IMG/VR virus record: IMGVR_UViG_3300029882_000009
Location: 1 to 64,000 of that record
From: a virus
DNA: 64,000 nucleotides
Direction: 5' to 3' (one strand)
Below are positions 13,417 through 20,293 of the stretch, one piece after another. Under the pieces are notes generated by a model. The model was not told the DNA's origin. It did no database searches and saw only the letters and a list, made by a program, of their open reading frames with translations. Positions within the stretch are counted from its first letter, which is position 1. The number at the start of each line of letters is the position of its first letter. The translations under genes and the position numbers were made by a program.

Positions 13417-13618
13417 TGCATTTGTGATTGGTTTCGCATCAGGTTTGTTGGTTGCTTTAGTTAATTACATACTGTTTGATCGCAAACGATTTAAAGACTG
13501 GAAGAAAATCATTGAAGACGAAATCAAGACTTTTCATGAAATTGAAGAGTTGAAGAAGCAACATCAACAGTTGATAACAGATATCATAACTGCTCGTGAT
13601 AAGGATAGTATAAAATGA
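13409..13618 (+). CDS. membrane-anchored coiled-coil protein
   Basis: 69 residues from a GTG start, overlapping the helicase by 8 bases. An N-terminal transmembrane helix (about 4-22, FVIGFASGLLVALVNYILF) precedes a basic stretch and a helical coil (EIKTFHEIEELKKQHQQLI). The architecture resembles small i-spanin-like or scaffolding peptides, but the position in the early region argues for an early membrane role. The stop overlaps the next ATG. Confidence 0.6.
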   Translation: MDNAFVIGFASGLLVALVNYILFDRKRFKDWKKIIEDEIKTFHEIEELKKQHQQLITDIITARDKDSIK

Positions 13619-13782
13619 GTTGGCTCTGTATATTTGGACACTCTTGGCACTATATTAAGTTCGATGCAGTAGGTAAACCAACTATCAGACAATGCCTGAA
13701 CTGTAAATGTGAACAAGCATTTTATGTAGCGCATGATCATAACTCTATTGGGGATTATTGGATACGCCATGAATGGAAATGA
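13615..13782 (+). CDS. small zinc-ribbon-like protein
   Basis: 55 residues, ATGA-coupled to the upstream gene. It reads MSWLCIFGHSWHYIKFD, then RQCLNCKCEQAFYVAHDH; the C, H and CxxCxC pattern recalls small phage zinc-knuckle proteins that open with a CxFGHxW motif. Missed easily because of its length. Function unknown. Confidence 0.6.
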   Translation: MSWLCIFGHSWHYIKFDAVGKPTIRQCLNCKCEQAFYVAHDHNSIGDYWIRHEWK

Positions 13783-13793
13783 TAAGGATAAAA

Positions 13794-14123
13794 ATGTTTA
13801 ACGATAAAATATTTGCAAGTCAGCAAGGTAGACAACCTTTTCGAGAATGGGATGGTGTAATAACCACAACAGGAGTGGACTATTCAGGTAAGATATTTAA
13901 ACGTCATGAAAATGGAATATATCAGATATGGAAGAAGAATAGTGGGTCGTGCTTCGCTGGGATAGGTTGTCAGATATATGTCAAGCCCTGGCTTGTACTT
14001 GTACGTGTCGAAGATAACGTAGCCTATGAAATAGAAGGTATGGAACTGTGTCGCAGTAATAGCAGATCTTGTGAGAAATATTTAGTGGAGAAAATGAATG
14101 ACTTATGTACTTCCGACAATTGA
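13794..14123 (+). CDS. hypothetical protein
   Basis: 109 residues. I chose the ATG at 13794 because AAGGATAAAA precedes it; an upstream ATG at 13773 lies inside the previous gene. Mostly strands (VITTTGVDYSGKIFKRHENG, IYVKPWLVLVRVEDNV), likely a beta barrel. Its end overlaps the next start. Function unknown. Confidence 0.6.
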   Translation: MFNDKIFASQQGRQPFREWDGVITTTGVDYSGKIFKRHENGIYQIWKKNSGSCFAGIGCQIYVKPWLVLVRVEDNVAYEIEGMELCRSNSRSCEKYLVEKMNDLCTSDN

Positions 14124-14439
14124 AGAAGTAGCTGCCGCCAGAAGAGAATGTGACGCGGCTTATAAGGAATGGCTGAGATATCCCTCATATAACAATCACA
14201 CCTACGAAGAGAAGTCACGTCTTATGAACGTCTCTTATCAAAAGAAGTCATATTTAGACTATCTTCTACGACCATATAGATACAGAGCTAATAAGGCTAA
14301 AAAAGAAGCTCTTCAAGCGATGGAGAGTTTGGCCTTATCTTATAACAATATCACAACTACTCTTTGTTCAATCAAAGCTCATAATTATGTAGTTAATAAA
14401 AACATACTCGAAGAAATGTTGAACGCAGGAAAGGAATAA
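14098..14439 (+). CDS. hypothetical helical basic protein
   Basis: 113 residues, strongly helical with many Tyr, Lys and Arg (EVAAARRECDAAYKEWLRYP, RPYRYRANKAKKEALQAM). Could be a coiled dimer; the basic face suggests nucleic-acid contact, by charge only. Ends 2 bases before the next ATG. Confidence 0.6.
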   Translation: MTYVLPTIEEVAAARRECDAAYKEWLRYPSYNNHTYEEKSRLMNVSYQKKSYLDYLLRPYRYRANKAKKEALQAMESLALSYNNITTTLCSIKAHNYVVNKNILEEMLNAGKE

Positions 14440-14441
14440 AA

Positions 14442-14624
14442 ATGCCATTCAGATCATTGAAAGAAAGTGAAAAGCCAAAAGAGCTATACATATGTCAGAG
14501 TCGAGAACACAACCCTCCCAATATGATAAAGTTAGAACCTGGTCTTCATATTTGGGTGTGTTCTGTTTGTGGTAAGGAAAGTAGAATTTTCGTTCCCGGT
14601 CTCGATTCGTGGTGTACAAGATAA
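14442..14624 (+). CDS. small CxxC protein
   Basis: 60 residues with ribosome site AGGAAT. It contains ICQSREHNPPNM and WVCSVCGKESRIFVPGLD, giving one CxxC, another C and a His that could hold zinc. Last protein gene before the RNA island. Function unknown. Confidence 0.6.
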   Translation: MPFRSLKESEKPKELYICQSREHNPPNMIKLEPGLHIWVCSVCGKESRIFVPGLDSWCTR

Positions 14625-14660
14625 TTTTTGACATTTTTTCTCAAATTTGTTCAAAAAGAC

Positions 14661-14689
14661 TTGCAATTCTTGATGAGAAGGTGTATAAT
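14661..14689 (+). promoter_or_regulatory. sigma70-type promoter of the RNA island
   Basis: TTGCAA at 14661, 17 bases, TATAAT at 14684, with GTG just before. It is the best promoter in this stretch, and no ORF of useful length follows for 400 bases, so its direct product is an RNA. Confidence 0.85.
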
Positions 14690-14695
14690 AGATAC

Positions 14696-15085
14696 ATAAG
14701 AGAAGAGAGATGGTTGTAGTCGGTGCCCGTCGGTGCATTAAATCAGTATGGGGATATGGGTAACACCGGAAAACTGAGCCAGTAAAGAAATACATGGTTA
14801 AAGAAGTAAGTAATTGAGCCTGGACGACGACACTGTTAAGAGATAACGTAAATCTTCTTAATACTTCGAGACGAGGTAACTAGCATCGTTACATCACCAT
14901 GTAGAAAGATAAGGCAGTTCAATTCTGCTCGCTGATCGAGGTTTGATGACTAACACTTCAGGTTCGATTCCTGAGCTTCCTGGATTACACGATGGTAGTT
15001 TTAGAAGTAAACCAGTTGGTGCTGGTAGATCAAAAGCAGAGGGAGTTTTTCTGACGGGATTCGCCCTCTGCTCGAAATTTTAGGA
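14696..15085 (+). ncRNA. structured non-coding RNA candidate 1
   Basis: No convincing gene lies between 14625 and 15092, yet a strong promoter fires into it. Visible helices: TCGGTG 14730/CACCGG 14764; TTAAGA 14836/TCTTAA 14856; GTAAC 14876/GTTAC 14888 with a 7-base loop; GGCAG 14913/CTGCT 14925 around TTCAATT; TCAGG 14958/CCTGA 14970 around TTCGATT; ACCAG 15011/CTGGT 15022; and a perfect 8-base GCAGAGGG 15036/CCCTCTGC 15064 near the end. Two of the loops are T-loop-like (as in tRNA T arms), but I could not build a complete tRNA around either. No known family is recognised. The boundaries are inferred from the promoter and the last helix. Confidence 0.5.
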
Positions 15086-15092
15086 TTAAAAA

Positions 15093-15299
15093 ATGGCAAT
15101 AGAAATAACAGAAGTTAAAAAGAAACGCGGTCTTGCTGCAATGTCTCCTGAACGACGTAAGGAAATAGCAGCTATGGGTGGAGTAACTGCTCATAAACTT
15201 GGTGTAGCTCATTCCTTTACGAGCGCTGAAGCAAAGGCCGCTACAAGTATTGGGCATATAAATCGGCGCGCTAAAAAGAGTAAACAAGATGGTCAGTGA
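15093..15299 (+). CDS. KGG/stress-protein-like small protein
   Basis: 68 residues. RGLAAMSPERRKEIAAMGG, then AHKLGVAHSFTSAEAKAA matches the repeat consensus of small 'KGG' or general-stress-like proteins (xxGFAAMSPERRxEIxxxGGxAAH...GxAHxFTxEEAxxAG). Such proteins are found in phages and bacteria without a settled function. The C-terminus is basic (RRAKKSKQDG), suggesting nucleic-acid contact. It sits between two structured RNAs. The next gene overlaps its end. Confidence 0.65.
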   Translation: MAIEITEVKKKRGLAAMSPERRKEIAAMGGVTAHKLGVAHSFTSAEAKAATSIGHINRRAKKSKQDGQ

Positions 15300-15444
15300 G
15301 TTTGAAGAAGAACCAGCTGATGATGATAATTGGGGTGATGCATGGCGTTATGAAGAATTTATATACGGTTTAAGAACTTTTGGTTGGATTGTGTTAATTT
15401 TAGCAATAATGATTGTTGTTCCGTTATTGTTCAAAACACACTAA
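15289..15444 (+). CDS. small tail-anchored membrane protein
   Basis: 51 residues. An acidic N-terminus (SEFEEEPADDDNWGDAWRYE) is followed by one transmembrane helix (about 33-48, WIVLILAIMIVVPLLF) and KTH. The start is inside the previous gene with AAGAG upstream. Predicted single-pass, acidic end in the cytoplasm. Function unknown. Confidence 0.55.
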   Translation: MVSEFEEEPADDDNWGDAWRYEEFIYGLRTFGWIVLILAIMIVVPLLFKTH

Positions 15445-16100
15445 AATATGTTGTCTATGCTTGAAAAGCCTCTTTTCCAAGACATAGATAGCTAGCTTCA
15501 TTCTAATGAAGCGCAATAACTACTGGTGAGCGTTTATGTTTGCCGACTGGGCGCTTACCAGTAGCTCTATATGTTGTCTGTGGGAACAGGTAAGACTCGT
15601 GAGCTGCGGTGACATCGAGCGCAACAGAACTGGCGCTGCCGTAATGGTTCCTGTTTCCGACTCATAGTGAGTCACGCGAAAAGCGTTGTAAAGAATGAGA
15701 ATAGGTTGGCAGCCCTCAGATTTGAAGATATGTGTGCTGGTGACAGCGAAACACAGAACAGGGTGTTGGGATTAAGAATTCGGCACCCTGTAAGATTTGA
15801 GGATTTCTCTGATAGAACAGGTTTTAGTTGTAGACCGGTTTTACTAAAACAAAGCATGGTGAAAACCTCTGCGCAGACAATCCGGTATGTATATCAGAGG
15901 AAACAATTTCTATGGGGTGTAGTGTAGTTGGGAGCACACCCAGCATGCAGGTAGTGAAGGTTCGATTCCTTTCGTTCCATAGAAAAAATTTCGGAGAGCG
16001 AAGAGGCACCTAACCGGGAACCTCTTTGCCATGACCCGGAAACTTCCTAAGTGCTCTTCATTGGAAAGAGTTAAATGTTGGATCGAACAGCTTAGGAATT
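15445..16100 (+). ncRNA. large ornate structured RNA candidate (GOLLD/ROOL-like)
   Basis: About 655 bases without a credible gene but packed with long helices: TCTATG 15454/CATAGA 15483; GCTTCATT 15495/AATGAAGC 15505; a 13-position helix 15520-15532 with 15552-15564; GGGAACAGG 15582/CCTGTTTCC 15650; GACTCA 15659/TGAGTC 15668; a three-way junction closed by CCTCAGA 15714/TTTGAGG 15796, holding CAGGGTG 15759/CACCCTG 15784; CTCTGATA 15807/TATCAGAG 15892 enclosing a pseudoknot (GTTTTAG 15821/CTAAAAC 15844 with ACCGG 15833/CCGGT 15882); TTTCTATGG 15907/CCATAGAAA 15977; a second pseudoknot (AAGAGG 16001/CCTCTT 16021 with CCGGG 16014/CCCGG 16035); TTCCTAAG 16044/CTTAGGAA 16091. Size, phage location and adjacency to tRNAs recall GOLLD and ROOL RNAs, but I cannot assign a family. 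A direct repeat TATGTTGTCT occurs at 15447 and 15570. Confidence 0.6.
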
Positions 16101-16117
16101 TAAAAATATAGAATTGT

Positions 16118-16194
16118 GGGTAGTTGGTGCATGGGGTTAGCATTCCGGTCTCCAAAACCGGCAGAAGTTGGTTCGAAACCAACACAGCCCGCCA
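16118..16194 (+). tRNA. tRNA-Trp (anticodon CCA)
   Basis: Acceptor GGGTAGT pairs with ACAGCCC (one A-A mismatch). D stem GTGC/GCAT. Anticodon stem CCGGT/ACCGG around CTCCAAA, T at 33 and CCA at 34-36. T arm GTTGG/CCAAC around TTCGAAA. G discriminator and encoded CCA. All arms are present; 77 bases. Confidence 0.9.
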
Positions 16195-16204
16195 AATGAG
16201 GTTT

Positions 16205-16316
16205 TAAAATGTTGAACTATAAGACGGTATGGAGTTAATAGCGGTTATGTTCAGCGACCGAATATAGCCGCAATAATGATAACAGGTCGTTGACAGGCTG
16301 GAATAGACAGCCATTT
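16205..16316 (+). ncRNA. H-type pseudoknot RNA between two tRNA genes
   Basis: GCGGTTAT at 16241 pairs with ATAGCCGC at 16264 (8 pairs). The loop it encloses, GTTCAGCGACC at 16249, pairs with GGTCGTTGAC at 16285 (10 pairs with one bulge), giving a compact two-helix pseudoknot. A separate hairpin GGCTG 16296/CAGCC 16308 follows. No ORF is present. It could be an independent small RNA or a processing/stability element of the polycistronic tRNA transcript. Confidence 0.5.
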
Positions 16317-16319
16317 TAT

Positions 16320-16395
16320 GCCAGTGTAGTCTAATTGGATAGGACATCTTGACAAAATCAGGTAATCGTAGGTTCGATTCCTACCGCTGACACCA
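16320..16395 (+). tRNA. aberrant tRNA (anticodon undetermined)
   Basis: Acceptor GCCAGTG/CGCTGAC (one C-A mismatch), D arm GTCT/GGAC, T arm GTAGG/CCTAC around TTCGATT, A discriminator and encoded CCA give a 76-base tRNA body. The anticodon arm is abnormal. The best stem CTTGA/TCAGG leaves a 5-base loop CAAAA; a 7-base loop ACAAAAT needs a weaker stem and has C, not T, at 33 with nominal anticodon AAA. Likely a decayed tRNA or one selected for an altered loop. Confidence 0.6.
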
Positions 16396-16520
16396 TAGGT
16401 TAATTAGGGTGTAACCTAAAAATAAAATCTCCCTTGCTGCAGCGAACCGGGAGAGAAATAGGAATTGGTCCAAGATTTATAAACTTTTCCACCCTATTTC
16501 TCTTTTGGGTAAGATTTAAC
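16396..16520 (+). ncRNA. spacer with strong hairpins between tRNA genes
   Basis: TAGGTTA 16396/TAACCTA 16412; TCTCCC 16428/GGGAGA 16449; and a perfect 10-pair helix GAGAAATAGG 16453/CCTATTTCTC 16493. The last two share bases, so they are alternatives, which would allow a switch. No gene is present. Could be processing signals or another small RNA. Confidence 0.35.
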
Positions 16521-16606
16521 GCCAGAGTGGTGAAATGTAAACACAGAGGGCTCAAACCCTTCCGACCCAAAAGGTCTTACGAGTTCAAGTCTCGTCTTTG
16601 GCACCA
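16521..16606 (+). tRNA. tRNA-Leu (anticodon CAA)
   Basis: Class II tRNA, 86 bases. Acceptor GCCAGAG/CTTTGGC, D stem GTG/CAC, anticodon stem GAGGG/CCTTC around CTCAAAC (T33, CAA at 34-36), long variable arm GACC/GGTC, T arm ACGAG/CTCGT around TTCAAGT, A discriminator, encoded CCA. Reads TTG codons. Confidence 0.9.
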
Positions 16607-16627
16607 ATATTTTATTAGGATAAAATT

Positions 16628-16831
16628 ATGTTGAAAGTTGCGGAGGTGCGAGTTGGCCTACGAGTTCATGTTAGTGTTTATGGCGATGGAATTGTGACAG
16701 AATTAATAGTTACCAGAAACCTTACACAAGCTATAGTTCAATTCGAATCTGGGGCCAAAGAAATATTTACGGCAACCTGGGCAAAACCAACTCACGAAAT
16801 TCATCAGTATGTAGATTTTGAAAAGATATAG
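16628..16831 (+). CDS. small beta-barrel-like protein
   Basis: 67 residues. The pattern VRVGLRVHVSVYGDGIVTEL, then QAIVQFESGAKEIF resembles the SH3-like 'GxxVxHxxxGxGxV...VxFxxGxxxxF' barrel of CarD/TRCF-interaction and DUF3553-type proteins. Such barrels often contact RNA polymerase or DNA; that is an inference here. It lies in the RNA island between tRNA-Leu and an ArsR-type regulator, 11 bases upstream of the latter. Confidence 0.55.
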   Translation: MLKVAEVRVGLRVHVSVYGDGIVTELIVTRNLTQAIVQFESGAKEIFTATWAKPTHEIHQYVDFEKI

Positions 16832-16841
16832 GGTAATAAAC

Positions 16842-17111
16842 ATGGACAATCAGACAATAAATTATCTTGCAGACATATGTTCTGCACTTGCACATCCGGT
16901 AAGGCTTCGTATCGTAGCTCTATTATCAGAAAATTCAAAGTCTGTTAATGATATAACTACTTCACTCGATATGGCGCAAGGCGCTGTTTCTGGTCACTTG
17001 CGTATTCTCAAACAGGCCAAACTTGTCGATTGTGAACGCACTGGCTCAAAAAATATTTATTCTCTTACCGGTCCAAATATTGAGAGTATAAAGAAGTTGA
17101 TAGAACGGTAA
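16842..17111 (+). CDS. ArsR-family winged-helix regulator
   Basis: 89 residues from the ATG; an earlier in-frame TTG is unlikely. ICSALAHPVRLRIVALL (residues about 9-25), SVNDITTSLDMAQGAVSGHL (32-51), RILKQAKLVDCERTGSKNIYSL form the ArsR HTH with its wing. It has no CxC metal site in the recognition helix (ELCVCDL-type residues are absent), so it is a non-metal ArsR protein. It ends 8 bases before the tmRNA gene and may control the RNA block or host genes. The family call is firm; targets are unknown. Confidence 0.85.
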   Translation: MDNQTINYLADICSALAHPVRLRIVALLSENSKSVNDITTSLDMAQGAVSGHLRILKQAKLVDCERTGSKNIYSLTGPNIESIKKLIER

Positions 17112-17119
17112 AAAGATAC

Positions 17120-17482
17120 GGGGGCGATAGGTATCGATTCAGATCAGGATACTCAATAAGCAAGCACTGGATGGTCGTTGGCCAGTATACGAATCCGACC
17201 TAAAAACAAACGCAAACACAACCTTTAAGACCGTTCGCCCTGTCGCTTTCGCTGCAGCCGCCTAAGTCTGATTGCACTACTTCTTCGGAAGTAGTGGGGA
17301 TTGAAACCTTACGTTTCTTTGATTAAGCATCACTCAGAATCTTGGATGCTAGGAAAATAGATTCAAACTTGTTAGATGGTTTGTTCGTAGAAAATCTAAC
17401 ATTATAAATACGAACTATGCTTGTAGGATATATTGAGATATGGGTACTGAAGACGGGAGTTCGACTCTCCCCGCCTCCACCA
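17120..17482 (+). ncRNA. ssrA: transfer-messenger RNA (tmRNA)
   Basis: The 5' end GGGGGCGATAGGTATCGATTC is the hallmark tmRNA start, and GGGGGCG pairs with CGCCTCC at 17472. The T arm GGGAG/CTCCC encloses TTCGACT; A discriminator and encoded CCA end it at 363 bases. A tag reading frame lies at 17212-17265. After its stop is the hairpin CACTACTTC/GAAGTAGTG, and further pairings fill the pseudoknot region. tmRNA frees stalled ribosomes and tags the nascent chain for proteolysis; SmpB would come from the host. tmRNA genes are known in a minority of phages. Confidence 0.93.
17212..17265 (+). other. tmRNA tag-peptide reading frame
   Basis: GCA at 17212, after AAAAACAAAC, is the likely resume codon, as GCA is in E. 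coli. The frame reads ANTTFKTVRPVAFAAAA and ends TAA. A hydrophobic Ala-rich end fits ClpXP-type tags, but it ends AAAA, not the common ALAA. The resume codon is inferred by analogy. Confidence 0.7.
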
Positions 17483-17567
17483 AATTTCGGGATATAGCTT
17501 GGATACTGCTTTAGCGGCTGTCTCCTTTCGGGGTGATAGAGTATTTGGGAACGACGGCCTGAAATTT
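17483..17567 (+). ncRNA. structured RNA adjoining the tmRNA 3' end
   Basis: AAATTTCGGG (beginning at the last base of the tmRNA CCA, 17482) pairs with CCTGAAATTT at 17558 (10 pairs, one G-T). Inside are ATACT 17503/AGTAT 17540 and a C-rich/G-rich hairpin around TTTC. It has no T arm and no ORF. Possibly a processing element for tmRNA maturation, a terminator-like structure without a T tract, or an independent RNA. Confidence 0.4.
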
Positions 17568-17581
17568 TAAACACAATGTGA

Positions 17582-17713
17582 CCGTAATACCCATAATGGT
17601 TAATGGGGTGCGATTCCGGTAGTCGTAGTTCAAGCACAGTTGGTCTCACTGTACGCGCGTATGGTGAAGGAGATTGGGGTTTGATCCAGGTTCGAATCCT
17701 TGGTTGCGGTCCA
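17582..17713 (+). tRNA. oversized tRNA-like element (132 bases)
   Basis: CCGTAAT pairs with GTTGCGG (7 pairs), T discriminator and encoded CCA. D stem CCAT/ATGG encloses AATGGTTA. The T arm CCAGG/CCTTG encloses TTCGAAT. Between D and T arms lie about 85 bases instead of about 25, holding hairpins TGCGA/TCGTA and ACAGT/ACTGT (loop TGGTCTC, no T at 33). Either a tRNA with an inserted segment or a tRNA-like RNA; no anticodon can be assigned. Confidence 0.4.
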
Positions 17714-17735
17714 AATTTTATAAGAAAGTACGTAT

Positions 17736-19655
17736 ATGTATTCAGCAAAAATAATCAGGGATTCTATATCATCAGCAGGAGCACGGATCACTACCTTTGA
17801 ATTCGTAATACCTCGTATTGTATTATGTGAATTTAACACACACAGATCTCTTTGTCTCGCTGGAGATTCTATATTAGAATTCAGTAGCCCAAGAGCGCAA
17901 AAACGTGAAAGTAGTGCCACCAAGTATCCTATCTCAATCGAGAATTTCTATCGTAAATGGACTGAAGGAGCACAGCCAAGACCGTCAAAAAACCATAAAA
18001 TACTCGATATGTCGTTATTGGATGATAATAGTGTTTATACTACAATGGAACTCAAAAACATATTTGGGTTCAGCAATTATTCTGGACTAAATGGATCTTG
18101 TAGATCTGGTTTGTTAAAAGCCGTGAAAGAATTGGATGGTCGGCAATGGCTGGTGTTGGGGTCTGATTTTAAGAAGTTTTACGAGCGTCCACGAGTTAAT
18201 AACCAACCAATTCAATATCGACTCAAAGACATGACGATCCGACAGATCAATGAACATACAAACAAAATACAATATTCAACTGTTGTTGATTGTTTCTATT
18301 CAGGTCGTAAAGAAATTTTTGAAGTAAAGGCCGGAAGACACCAAATAGCCGGAAGTAAAGATCATAAAATTTGGACAGATACTGGTTATGTTACAATCGA
18401 GAATATTATTCCAGGCACTACCAGAATAGCCGTGCGACGATTGGGAAAACCAGAAACAGAAAAACTTCATCGTTTTACAAGAGCAGAACAACATAGTTAT
18501 ATTATGTGGAACAGAAAAGCCAAGCTTCAACTTATAGCTGAAATGGGTTGTTGTCAGAAATGTGGATCTGTTGATCAACTGCGCATTCATCATATTCAAC
18601 CACGTTATTTACGACCTGATTTGGTAGCCGACAAAAACAATGTTACCCTACTTTGTGAAGGTTGCCATAGAAAAGAGCACGAAGTTCAAGGTTGGCAAAC
18701 AGGATTTGAATATTATGTTGACTTCATAACAGTTGATTCAATCAATTATCGTGGAGTTGAAGACACATATGATCTTGAAATTGCCGGAGAATTTCCAAAC
18801 TTTTTCGCGAATGGTATTGTAGTTCATAATAGTAGGAACAGTGCATCCAGTCGTGCTATTCCTGTTGAACGTAAAATTAAACAGGTAATGGAAACTCCTT
18901 TTATCCCTCTTGTGTGGGCGACTAACAAAAAAGGTATGCAGGGTGGAGAACCATTAAGTGTTGAAGATGAACGTTTAGCAATTAGAGCATGGTTAAACGC
19001 CAGAGATCAAATGGTGCTTGCTGCAAATTACCTATCAAAAGATTTGAACGTCCACAAGTCCATTGCAAATCGTCTTATAGAGCCATTTGCATGGCAAACC
19101 ATAATTGCGACTGCCACAGATTGGCAGAATTATTTTACGCTGCGATGTCATGAATTGGCTCAACCTGAAATACAACTACCTTCTTTTCTTGCAATGGAAG
19201 CATATGATGAATCGATTCCAAAGAAAATAGAAACTCATAACTGGCACTTACCTTATATCAGTGACGAAGAAGTTGAGACTATGATGTACTGCGGAATCCT
19301 CACTGATGAATGGGGATATGAATTGCGTTCATTAGAATCTCTCATATCTGTCTCTGCTGGCCGATGTGCCAGAGTCTCAGTTCTCGGTCACGATGGTTCG
19401 CGAAGTTATGAAAAGGATTTAGGGTTAAATGATGGGTTATTGGCAAACAACCCCCCTCATGCCTCACCAACTGAACATCAAGCTATTGCTTTGAAGAATC
19501 GTGAAAGTAAAAGTGGTAACTTCACAGGTTGGGGCCAGAACCGTAAAAGATACCCAAATGAATGTTCTAAGACTATGCCATCAACAATCAATCCATGGGA
19601 TATAAAGGTGGTGTTGGCACATCTAGATTCAATATATGAGACCCAGAATGTCTAA
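17736..19655 (+). CDS. thyX: FAD-dependent thymidylate synthase ThyX, intein-split
   Basis: 639 residues encoding a ThyX of about 313 residues plus a 326-residue intein. ThyX makes dTMP from dUMP using FAD and methylenetetrahydrofolate. The ThyX signature becomes contiguous only after splicing: THRSL (35-39) joins SRNSASSR (366-373), giving the RHRxxSxNxxSxR-type motif. Following blocks FIPLVWATNKKGMQG and FAWQTIIATATDWQNYF are typical of the phage branch of the family. The intein begins at Cys40 and ends His-Asn365 with Ser366 as the +1 residue. ATG at 17736; it follows the tRNA-like element by 22 bases. Works with dCMP deaminase and the dNMP kinase downstream. Confidence 0.9.
   Translation: MYSAKIIRDSISSAGARITTFEFVIPRIVLCEFNTHRSLCLAGDSILEFSSPRAQKRESSATKYPISIENFYRKWTEGAQPRPSKNHKILDMSLLDDNSVYTTMELKNIFGFSNYSGLNGSCRSGLLKAVKELDGRQWLVLGSDFKKFYERPRVNNQPIQYRLKDMTIRQINEHTNKIQYSTVVDCFYSGRKEIFEVKAGRHQIAGSKDHKIWTDTGYVTIENIIPGTTRIAVRRLGKPETEKLHRFTRAEQHSYIMWNRKAKLQLIAEMGCCQKCGSVDQLRIHHIQPRYLRPDLVADKNNVTLLCEGCHRKEHEVQGWQTGFEYYVDFITVDSINYRGVEDTYDLEIAGEFPNFFANGIVVHNSRNSASSRAIPVERKIKQVMETPFIPLVWATNKKGMQGGEPLSVEDERLAIRAWLNARDQMVLAANYLSKDLNVHKSIANRLIEPFAWQTIIATATDWQNYFTLRCHELAQPEIQLPSFLAMEAYDESIPKKIETHNWHLPYISDEEVETMMYCGILTDEWGYELRSLESLISVSAGRCARVSVLGHDGSRSYEKDLGLNDGLLANNPPHASPTEHQAIALKNRESKSGNFTGWGQNRKRYPNECSKTMPSTINPWDIKVVLAHLDSIYETQNV
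17853..18830 (+). mobile_element. intein with HNH endonuclease in ThyX
   Basis: 326 residues, class 1. N-terminal block CLAGDSILEF; block B around GSKDHKIWT; C-terminal blocks VEDTYDLEIAGEFPNFFANG and VVHN before Ser. The centre carries an HNH zinc endonuclease: CCQKCGSVDQLRIHHIQPRY, then NNVTLLCEGCHRKEH. An extra segment at about 60-140 (DMSLLDDN...FKKFYERP) is not part of the usual splicing fold and looks like a DNA-binding insert. All splice-junction residues are intact, so splicing and homing both look possible. Confidence 0.92.
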
Positions 19656-19980
19656 AACAACAACAATTCACAACAAACTTGTTCGAGATAATATTCCTGA
19701 TATTATAAAACAAAATGGCAATACCTGTAGAACTCGTACTCTGGAGCGAAGAGAGTTTGTAGATTGTCTTATCACAAAATTGATTGAAGAGACTAATGAA
19801 TTCGCTGAGCATCACACTATTGAAGAGTTGGTAGATATGTATACTGTTTTACATGCCTTAATGAAAGCAACTTTTGGTTTTCATGAAATAGCTGCCGCAG
19901 CTACTACAAAACGTGTCAAAAATGGAGCATTCGAAAATCAAGTATTTTTAATATCAACAGAAAGTGGAACTGATGCCTGA
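19648..19980 (+). CDS. MazG-like nucleotide pyrophosphohydrolase
   Basis: 110 residues from the second ATG (GAGA 7 bases upstream); an ATG 12 bases earlier is possible. HNKLVRDNIPDIIKQNG, then KLIEETNEFAEH and EELVDMYTVLHALM match the all-alpha 'house-cleaning' NTP pyrophosphatase group (YNKLVRDxIPExI...KLxEExxEl...EExaDvxEvl), with acidic residues EExxE and ExxD for metal. It would hydrolyse non-canonical nucleoside triphosphates. Overlaps the thyX stop by 8 bases, placing it in the nucleotide operon. Confidence 0.8.
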   Translation: MSKTTTIHNKLVRDNIPDIIKQNGNTCRTRTLERREFVDCLITKLIEETNEFAEHHTIEELVDMYTVLHALMKATFGFHEIAAAATTKRVKNGAFENQVFLISTESGTDA

Positions 19981-20176
19981 ATTAAAAATGCCCAAAAGAC
20001 TAACCCTTCCAACCATATCTGAACAATGTCCTGGGTGTGACAATTCAATATGGTTGAATTTAAATGATAGTCGTGATTTTGGGGAGACTCTCGCCTTTAC
20101 GGGTTACTGCTTTGTATGCCAATTAGGCATTTCTCTAACTGTAGGGCTTAGAGAAAAAGACGTTGTTGACAGTTAA
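19973..20176 (+). CDS. zinc-ribbon protein
   Basis: 67 residues from ATG at 19973, overlapping the previous stop. CPGCDNSIWLNLND, then FTGYCFVCQLGISLTV gives two CxxC pairs about 27 apart, a small zinc ribbon. Last gene before a perfect promoter. Function unknown. Confidence 0.65.
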   Translation: MPELKMPKRLTLPTISEQCPGCDNSIWLNLNDSRDFGETLAFTGYCFVCQLGISLTVGLREKDVVDS

Positions 20177-20208
20177 TGTACGGTGTAAATACAAACAAAA
20201 ATCCATGC

Positions 20209-20237
20209 TTGACAACTAGATTTTTGTAGCATATACT
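20209..20237 (+). promoter_or_regulatory. consensus sigma70 promoter of the replication block
   Basis: TTGACA (perfect) at 20209, 17 bases, TATACT at 20232. The predicted start is about 20244, giving a leader of about 50 bases before the Sak4-like gene. Confidence 0.9.
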
Positions 20238-20245
20238 AAAGCGTT

Positions 20246-20262
20246 GGCAGTCAAAGACTGCC
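20246..20262 (+). promoter_or_regulatory. 5'-leader hairpin
   Basis: Perfect GGCAGTC/GACTGCC stem with loop AAA at the very 5' end of the predicted transcript. There is no T tract, so it is not a terminator; a 5' mRNA-stabilising hairpin or an operator are options. An AAGGAGG ribosome site follows at 20281. Confidence 0.55.
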
Positions 20263-20293
20263 TTCGAAACCACAATACCCAAGGAGGTAGTGG

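Follow-up and report, generated by a model that had tools for sequence, protein, structure and literature searches.

Among described RNAs, GOLLD and ROOL are two of the closest to the one reported here. GOLLD assembles into a 14-mer cage and ROOL into an 8-mer cage; to our knowledge, the purpose of these RNA-only cages is unknown. In MALAT1/mascRNA, RNase P cleavage at a neighbouring tRNA or tRNA-like structure defines where a long RNA ends on its 3' side. YrlA (RF02553) is a non-coding bacterial Y RNA which mimics tRNA and has a tRNA-like domain (PMC7790460), and tRNAs sometimes sit in the linker of GOLLD (PMC12286853). The 673-nt stretch analyzed here, positions 15445-16117 on the + strand of a phage DNA, is in our judgement probably a large (approx. 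670 nt) structured non-coding RNA of an undescribed family, with the maturation and role proposed below. It resembles GOLLD (RF02032) as a predicted large ornate phage RNA with tRNAs nearby, and ROOL (RF03087) in its similar length (model of 574 positions), its phage origin and its location in a tRNA island.

The window, a stretch of 64,000 nucleotides, covers the opening 64 kb of a virus record that is 97,745 bases long. The phage encodes a DnaE-type polymerase, a primase/helicase, a SNF2-type helicase, a Sak4-like annealing protein, ThyX and a tape measure protein, and the relatives of these proteins are only distant (primase 24%–28% and DnaE approx. 29% versus named phages). An RNA island at 14.6–17.7 kb contained tRNA-Trp(CCA) (16118-16194, found by the Rfam tRNA model and ARAGORN), tRNA-Phe(AAA) (16320-16395) and tRNA-Leu(CAA) (16521-16606), both called by ARAGORN, a tmRNA with the tag ANTTFKTVRPVAFAAAA (17120-17482, Rfam and ARAGORN) and structured gene-free stretches around them, all on the + strand. 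On the same strand, a second gene-free structured stretch was located at 14698-15092, upstream of two small ORFs, and a promoter-like site TTGCAA-17-TATAAT at 14661-14689, upstream of the island; such sites occurred at chance frequency.

Several other features were observed at the island and its margins. The 133 nt at 17581-17713 are tRNA-like: an acceptor stem, a D-arm, a T-arm and an encoded CCA are present, a very large insert replaces the normal variable arm, and ARAGORN gave no call at default. ThyX (17736-19655) is split in frame by a likely intein, an insert that carries an HNH endonuclease domain. Two contigs, each from a different metagenome and neither including 15445-16117, both stopped exactly at 17774, beside the island, which is perhaps a strain-variable junction; those of their proteins that were compared matched the window with 100% identity. 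A 7-kb stretch (13417-20293) holding the island and ThyX was missing from the nearest phage relative, L009.

The window, the island and 15445-16117 itself were each searched with Rfam, both at the gathering score and at E 10. Within 15445-16117 the tRNA model alone scored above threshold; weak matches to U6atac, SpF41 and S4-leader were all far under their gathering scores. The sequence-only reading of this DNA had likened the locus to GOLLD and ROOL and proposed an Infernal search of Rfam, and on running that search the likeness did not hold at the level of the models. No match was obtained at E 10 in the whole 97.7-kb record with either GOLLD (at least 150 bits needed, conserved 3' region) or ROOL (at least 99.1 bits needed; the control genomes were also silent), and in the comparison with ROOL no shared sequence was detected. 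The setting is of the GOLLD type, a phage locus in a virus record followed by tRNA-Trp, -Phe and -Leu. A very diverged GOLLD/ROOL-type RNA, which would assemble into a particle made solely of RNA and carry the tRNA-like part within a linker, would share the size range, phage origin and tRNA neighbours, and would recall the tRNAs which GOLLD linkers at times carry (PMC12286853), but with neither model matching even at E 10 we regard this explanation as rather improbable.

Similarly, the YrlA model found no match in the whole phage record and no Ro60/TROVE protein gene was present in the phage. The tmRNA model (RF00023) did not match within 15445-16117, the sole tmRNA being that at 17120-17482, and a group I/II intron or an RNase P RNA was ruled out as no Rfam match was found. 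In blastn with 15445-16117 as query, phage and plasmid sequences gave no matches beyond pieces of tRNAs. No relative of this RNA came from the IMG/VR contigs and GTDB genomes reached through three proteins, namely the Sak4-like protein, the helicase and the primase; in L009, the nearest (primase 46%), the gap from the helicase to the Sak4-like gene is approx. 350 nt, with neither tRNAs nor an island. Four DNA-pattern scans of IMG/VR, in which junctions and pseudoknot loops served as patterns, gave chance matches only, and 15445-16117 did not resemble the RNAs of Rosemountvirus, Rhizobium and Cellulophaga phages described below. Two candidates were discarded: a 660-nt gap in the tRNA cluster of G025 holds ORFs, and a z of 3.9 against Erwinia phage SOI901 stemmed from a locus with two tRNAs. 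A new class, known from one sequence with no homolog found, is thus possible but unproven.

The 673 nt fill exactly the gap between an ORF stop at 15444 on the 5' side and tRNA-Trp at 16118 on the 3' side; the end of the structure at 16117, flush with the tRNA, had not been recognized in the sequence-only reading. ORFs within this stretch had a codon log-likelihood near zero or negative, while the two ORFs directly upstream (15093-15299 and 15289-15444) scored 0.37 and 0.30 per codon, exceeding all or nearly all training genes (0.08–0.32 per codon). No real Pfam match was obtained in 15445-16117. An 86-codon frame at 15667-15927 leaves room for an encoded small protein, but this frame scored only 0.009 per codon against the values above for training genes and upstream ORFs and had no family match of note. 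Protein coding was rejected on codon score and Pfam, and we consider a small protein here extremely unlikely. The earlier statement that 15445-16100 contained no gene was therefore borne out.

The predicted minimum free energy (MFE) of 15445-16117 was −230 kcal/mol, with a z of −6.8 which was equalled by none of 20 dinucleotide shuffles, and 15445-15911 alone gave a z of −6.7 (0 of 100 shuffles). By comparison, 56 control windows of 460 nt had a median z of −0.3 and a lowest value of −4.4. In a fold scan of the whole 64-kb window, two of the six strongest 150-nt windows on the + strand fell in 15445-16117. By these statistics the stretch is a real, non-coding and strongly structured RNA; strong folding does not by itself imply function. 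Energetics, absent coding signal and sharp boundaries together give good support to the proposal that this phage RNA island contains a non-coding RNA which is large and structured.

Helices were derived from the partition function with their pair probabilities (P), and all lie on the + strand. The 5' part (15450-15564) consists of three hairpins with P of 0.87–1.0, at 15450-15492 (helix 15450-15459/15483-15492, P 1.0), 15495-15512 (helix 15495-15501/15506-15512) and 15520-15564 (a 17-bp helix, 15520-15536/15548-15564, P 0.99). The main domain (15566-16112) is closed by helix 15566-15572/16106-16112 (P 0.95), which stops 5 nt short of tRNA-Trp. Within it the partition function supported helices 15582-15590/15650-15658 and 15659-15664/15668-15673, a three-way junction (15714-15802) with outer stem 15714-15723/15793-15802 and hairpins at 15731-15755 (GTGA loop) and 15758-15791, helix 15804-15814/15892-15902 around a putative first pseudoknot (15821-15886), a 13-bp helix 15907-15919/15973-15985, a hairpin at 15989-16041 with a possible H-type pseudoknot (16001-16039), and helices 15998-16006/16021-16029 and 16044-16098. 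The at least nine long helices and the three-way junction reported from the sequence were thus recovered, and the closing helix was added to them.

The two pseudoknots fared less well. That at 16001-16039 can be drawn, as AAGAGG/CCTCTT with CCGGG/CCCGG, with competition from a 6-bp outer stem, and the helix of the 15821-15886 knot lies just 0.5 kcal/mol over the MFE, which makes this knot possible but unproven. Under the same rule, H-type knots were found in 59 of 200 shuffles and in 21 of 96 window segments, so the knots are not significant and were dropped as stand-alone evidence. Likewise the 10-nt repeat TATGTTGTCT is present at 15447 and 15570 as had been noted, but we estimate that such a repeat would arise by chance in approx. 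one 666-nt sequence in five, and it is not significant alone.

The tRNA match lies in a tRNA-like domain at 15907-15985 (+ strand) which was absent from the sequence-only reading. The Rfam tRNA model (RF00005) matched 15913-15980 with 37.2 bits (gathering score 29; E 3e-4 over the window). Both the D-arm, with GG, and the T-arm, GAAGG-TTCGATT-CCTTT, are intact. The acceptor-side stem is extended to 13 bp (TTTCTATGGGGTG/CGTTCCATAGAAA), the anticodon arm is stunted, its two or three pairs closing a loop of 9 nt, and no CCA is present in the sequence. The domain accordingly differs from a working tRNA, which has a 5-bp anticodon stem, 7-nt loop, 7-bp acceptor and CCA, and ARAGORN at default called no tRNA at 15907-15985. 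We take a mimic to be likelier than a relic because decay of a tRNA gene would not lengthen its acceptor by six pairs. The presence in the island of a degenerate tRNA-like sequence and of an odd long one might suggest that remnants of tRNA genes and of mobile sequences have piled up here; since the 13- and 17-bp helices and the z of −6.8 are not products of decay, such an origin appears highly unlikely.

How the RNA might be matured is suggested by its position. It would be made as part of the transcript of the island, with read-through into tRNA-Trp, and RNase P cleavage at the 5' end of that tRNA (16118) would generate its 3' end, so that this enzyme probably separates 15445-16117 from tRNA-Trp and a 673-base RNA would be left over as a stable structured molecule. 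The analogy with MALAT1/mascRNA would extend to 3'-end processing only, with no homology. The same flush junction with tRNA-Trp is also what one would expect of a structured leader or spacer of the tRNA operon, whose folds would insulate or time tRNA processing and whose 5' piece, once removed, would serve no separate function. The spacers between the other tRNAs are likewise structured, with a local z of −4.2 for that from tRNA-Trp to tRNA-Phe (16195-16319, + strand) and of −3.0 for that from tRNA-Phe to tRNA-Leu (16396-16520, + strand). A length of 673 nt, however, is far above the need of a processing leader, and the tRNA-like domain and the closed multi-branch domain also speak against it; we judge a leader or spacer unlikely. 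In the first of these spacers, a hairpin loop AGCGACC is complementary to GGTCGTT further downstream.

For the RNA as a distinct molecule, which we favour, we infer a function as tRNA mimic or scaffold. The long acceptor-side stem and missing CCA would leave the tRNA-like domain neither matured nor charged, and outside translation. During infection the RNA may serve as a stable scaffold offering a tRNA elbow to tRNA-binding factors, for which modifying enzymes, RNase P, the ribosome and tRNA-cutting defence nucleases are candidate partners.

A firmer comparative result than that for 15445-16117 is a 39-nt T-loop element in the upstream part of the island, at 14911-14949 (+ strand), which is common to three other, unrelated phage lineages. 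In blastn with the whole island as query, Rosemountviruses matched 14911-14948 of the window (E 2e-4), and with the KE25 copy as query weak matches (E 0.3 to 1) were obtained in Cellulophaga Baltivirus and Rhizobium Cyamitesvirus phages. The element is unannotated in these phages as in the Rosemount/Loughboroughviruses (copies across the three lineages at L195 822-860, L196 916-954, L200 825-863, L206 1502-1540 and L207 1495-1533), and each Baltivirus and Cyamitesvirus copy lies directly 3' of a tRNA. It is built of a T-loop hairpin NNNN-TTCRANT-NNNN, a TCGCTG-like strand and a hairpin AYYGA-GNT-TTGRT, and its stems covary, with double-sided changes at three pairs. A T-arm-like hairpin follows 10–35 bases 3' of it; in the window this is a second T-arm, TTCAGG-TTCGATT-CCTGAG, at 14957-14975 (+ strand).

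A covariance model trained without the Baltivirus and Cyamitesvirus lineages scored the held-out Cellulophaga and Rhizobium copies at 39.6 and 46.0 bits (whole-record E of approx. 1e-10 and 1e-12). Testing of T4, T5, KVP40, Streptomyces phage Phredrick and another 49 viral contigs did not reveal the element, which is also absent from 15445-16117; the model gave a 15.5-bit match in G036, which looks like chance, and a 17.4-bit match in PA7. No Rfam model, that of YrlA among them, matched the element, and a gene for a Ro60/TROVE protein was absent from all phages tested.

At the corresponding place, between helicase and thymidylate synthase, Rosemountvirus and Loughboroughvirus genomes (L194 1386-1918, and L195-L204) carry an unannotated structured RNA of 530–690 nt, which has the T-loop element in common with the upstream RNA of the window (14911-14949) and no similarity to 15445-16117 itself. 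The rivia version had a fold z of −8.4. Among the 11 versions, a UUCG-type 5' hairpin was present in most, the 3' terminator was conserved, and a 13-bp helix showed three double-sided changes with 99% of cells paired. Erwinia phage SOI901 has two real tRNAs at this place. In Rhizobium phages N38 and I1_6 a gene-free stretch of approx. 650 nt (L207 1486-2139, L209 1486-2133) follows tRNA-Gln; this stretch (654 bases) begins with the T-loop element, and long blocks of it are identical in the two genomes while its hairpins vary. The conservation of the element in unannotated RNA loci of other phages indicates that non-coding RNAs with tRNA-like parts at these loci are real.

These results support the view that structured phage RNAs which mimic tRNA form a wider class, poorly annotated so far. 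More tentatively, a widespread and unrecognized class of tRNA-elbow mimics may exist in such islands, with the 673-nt RNA as a large member and the T-loop element as the hallmark of another, maybe acting as decoys or docking scaffolds for tRNA-binding host factors or tRNA-cutting defence enzymes. The T-loop element, which is missing from annotations and from Rfam, lends itself to direct tests in laboratory phages of Salmonella and E. coli. One more large phage RNA that belongs to no known family and contains a tRNA mimic would widen the GOLLD/ROOL-like class, and the mimic within it would suggest the translation machinery as a partner.
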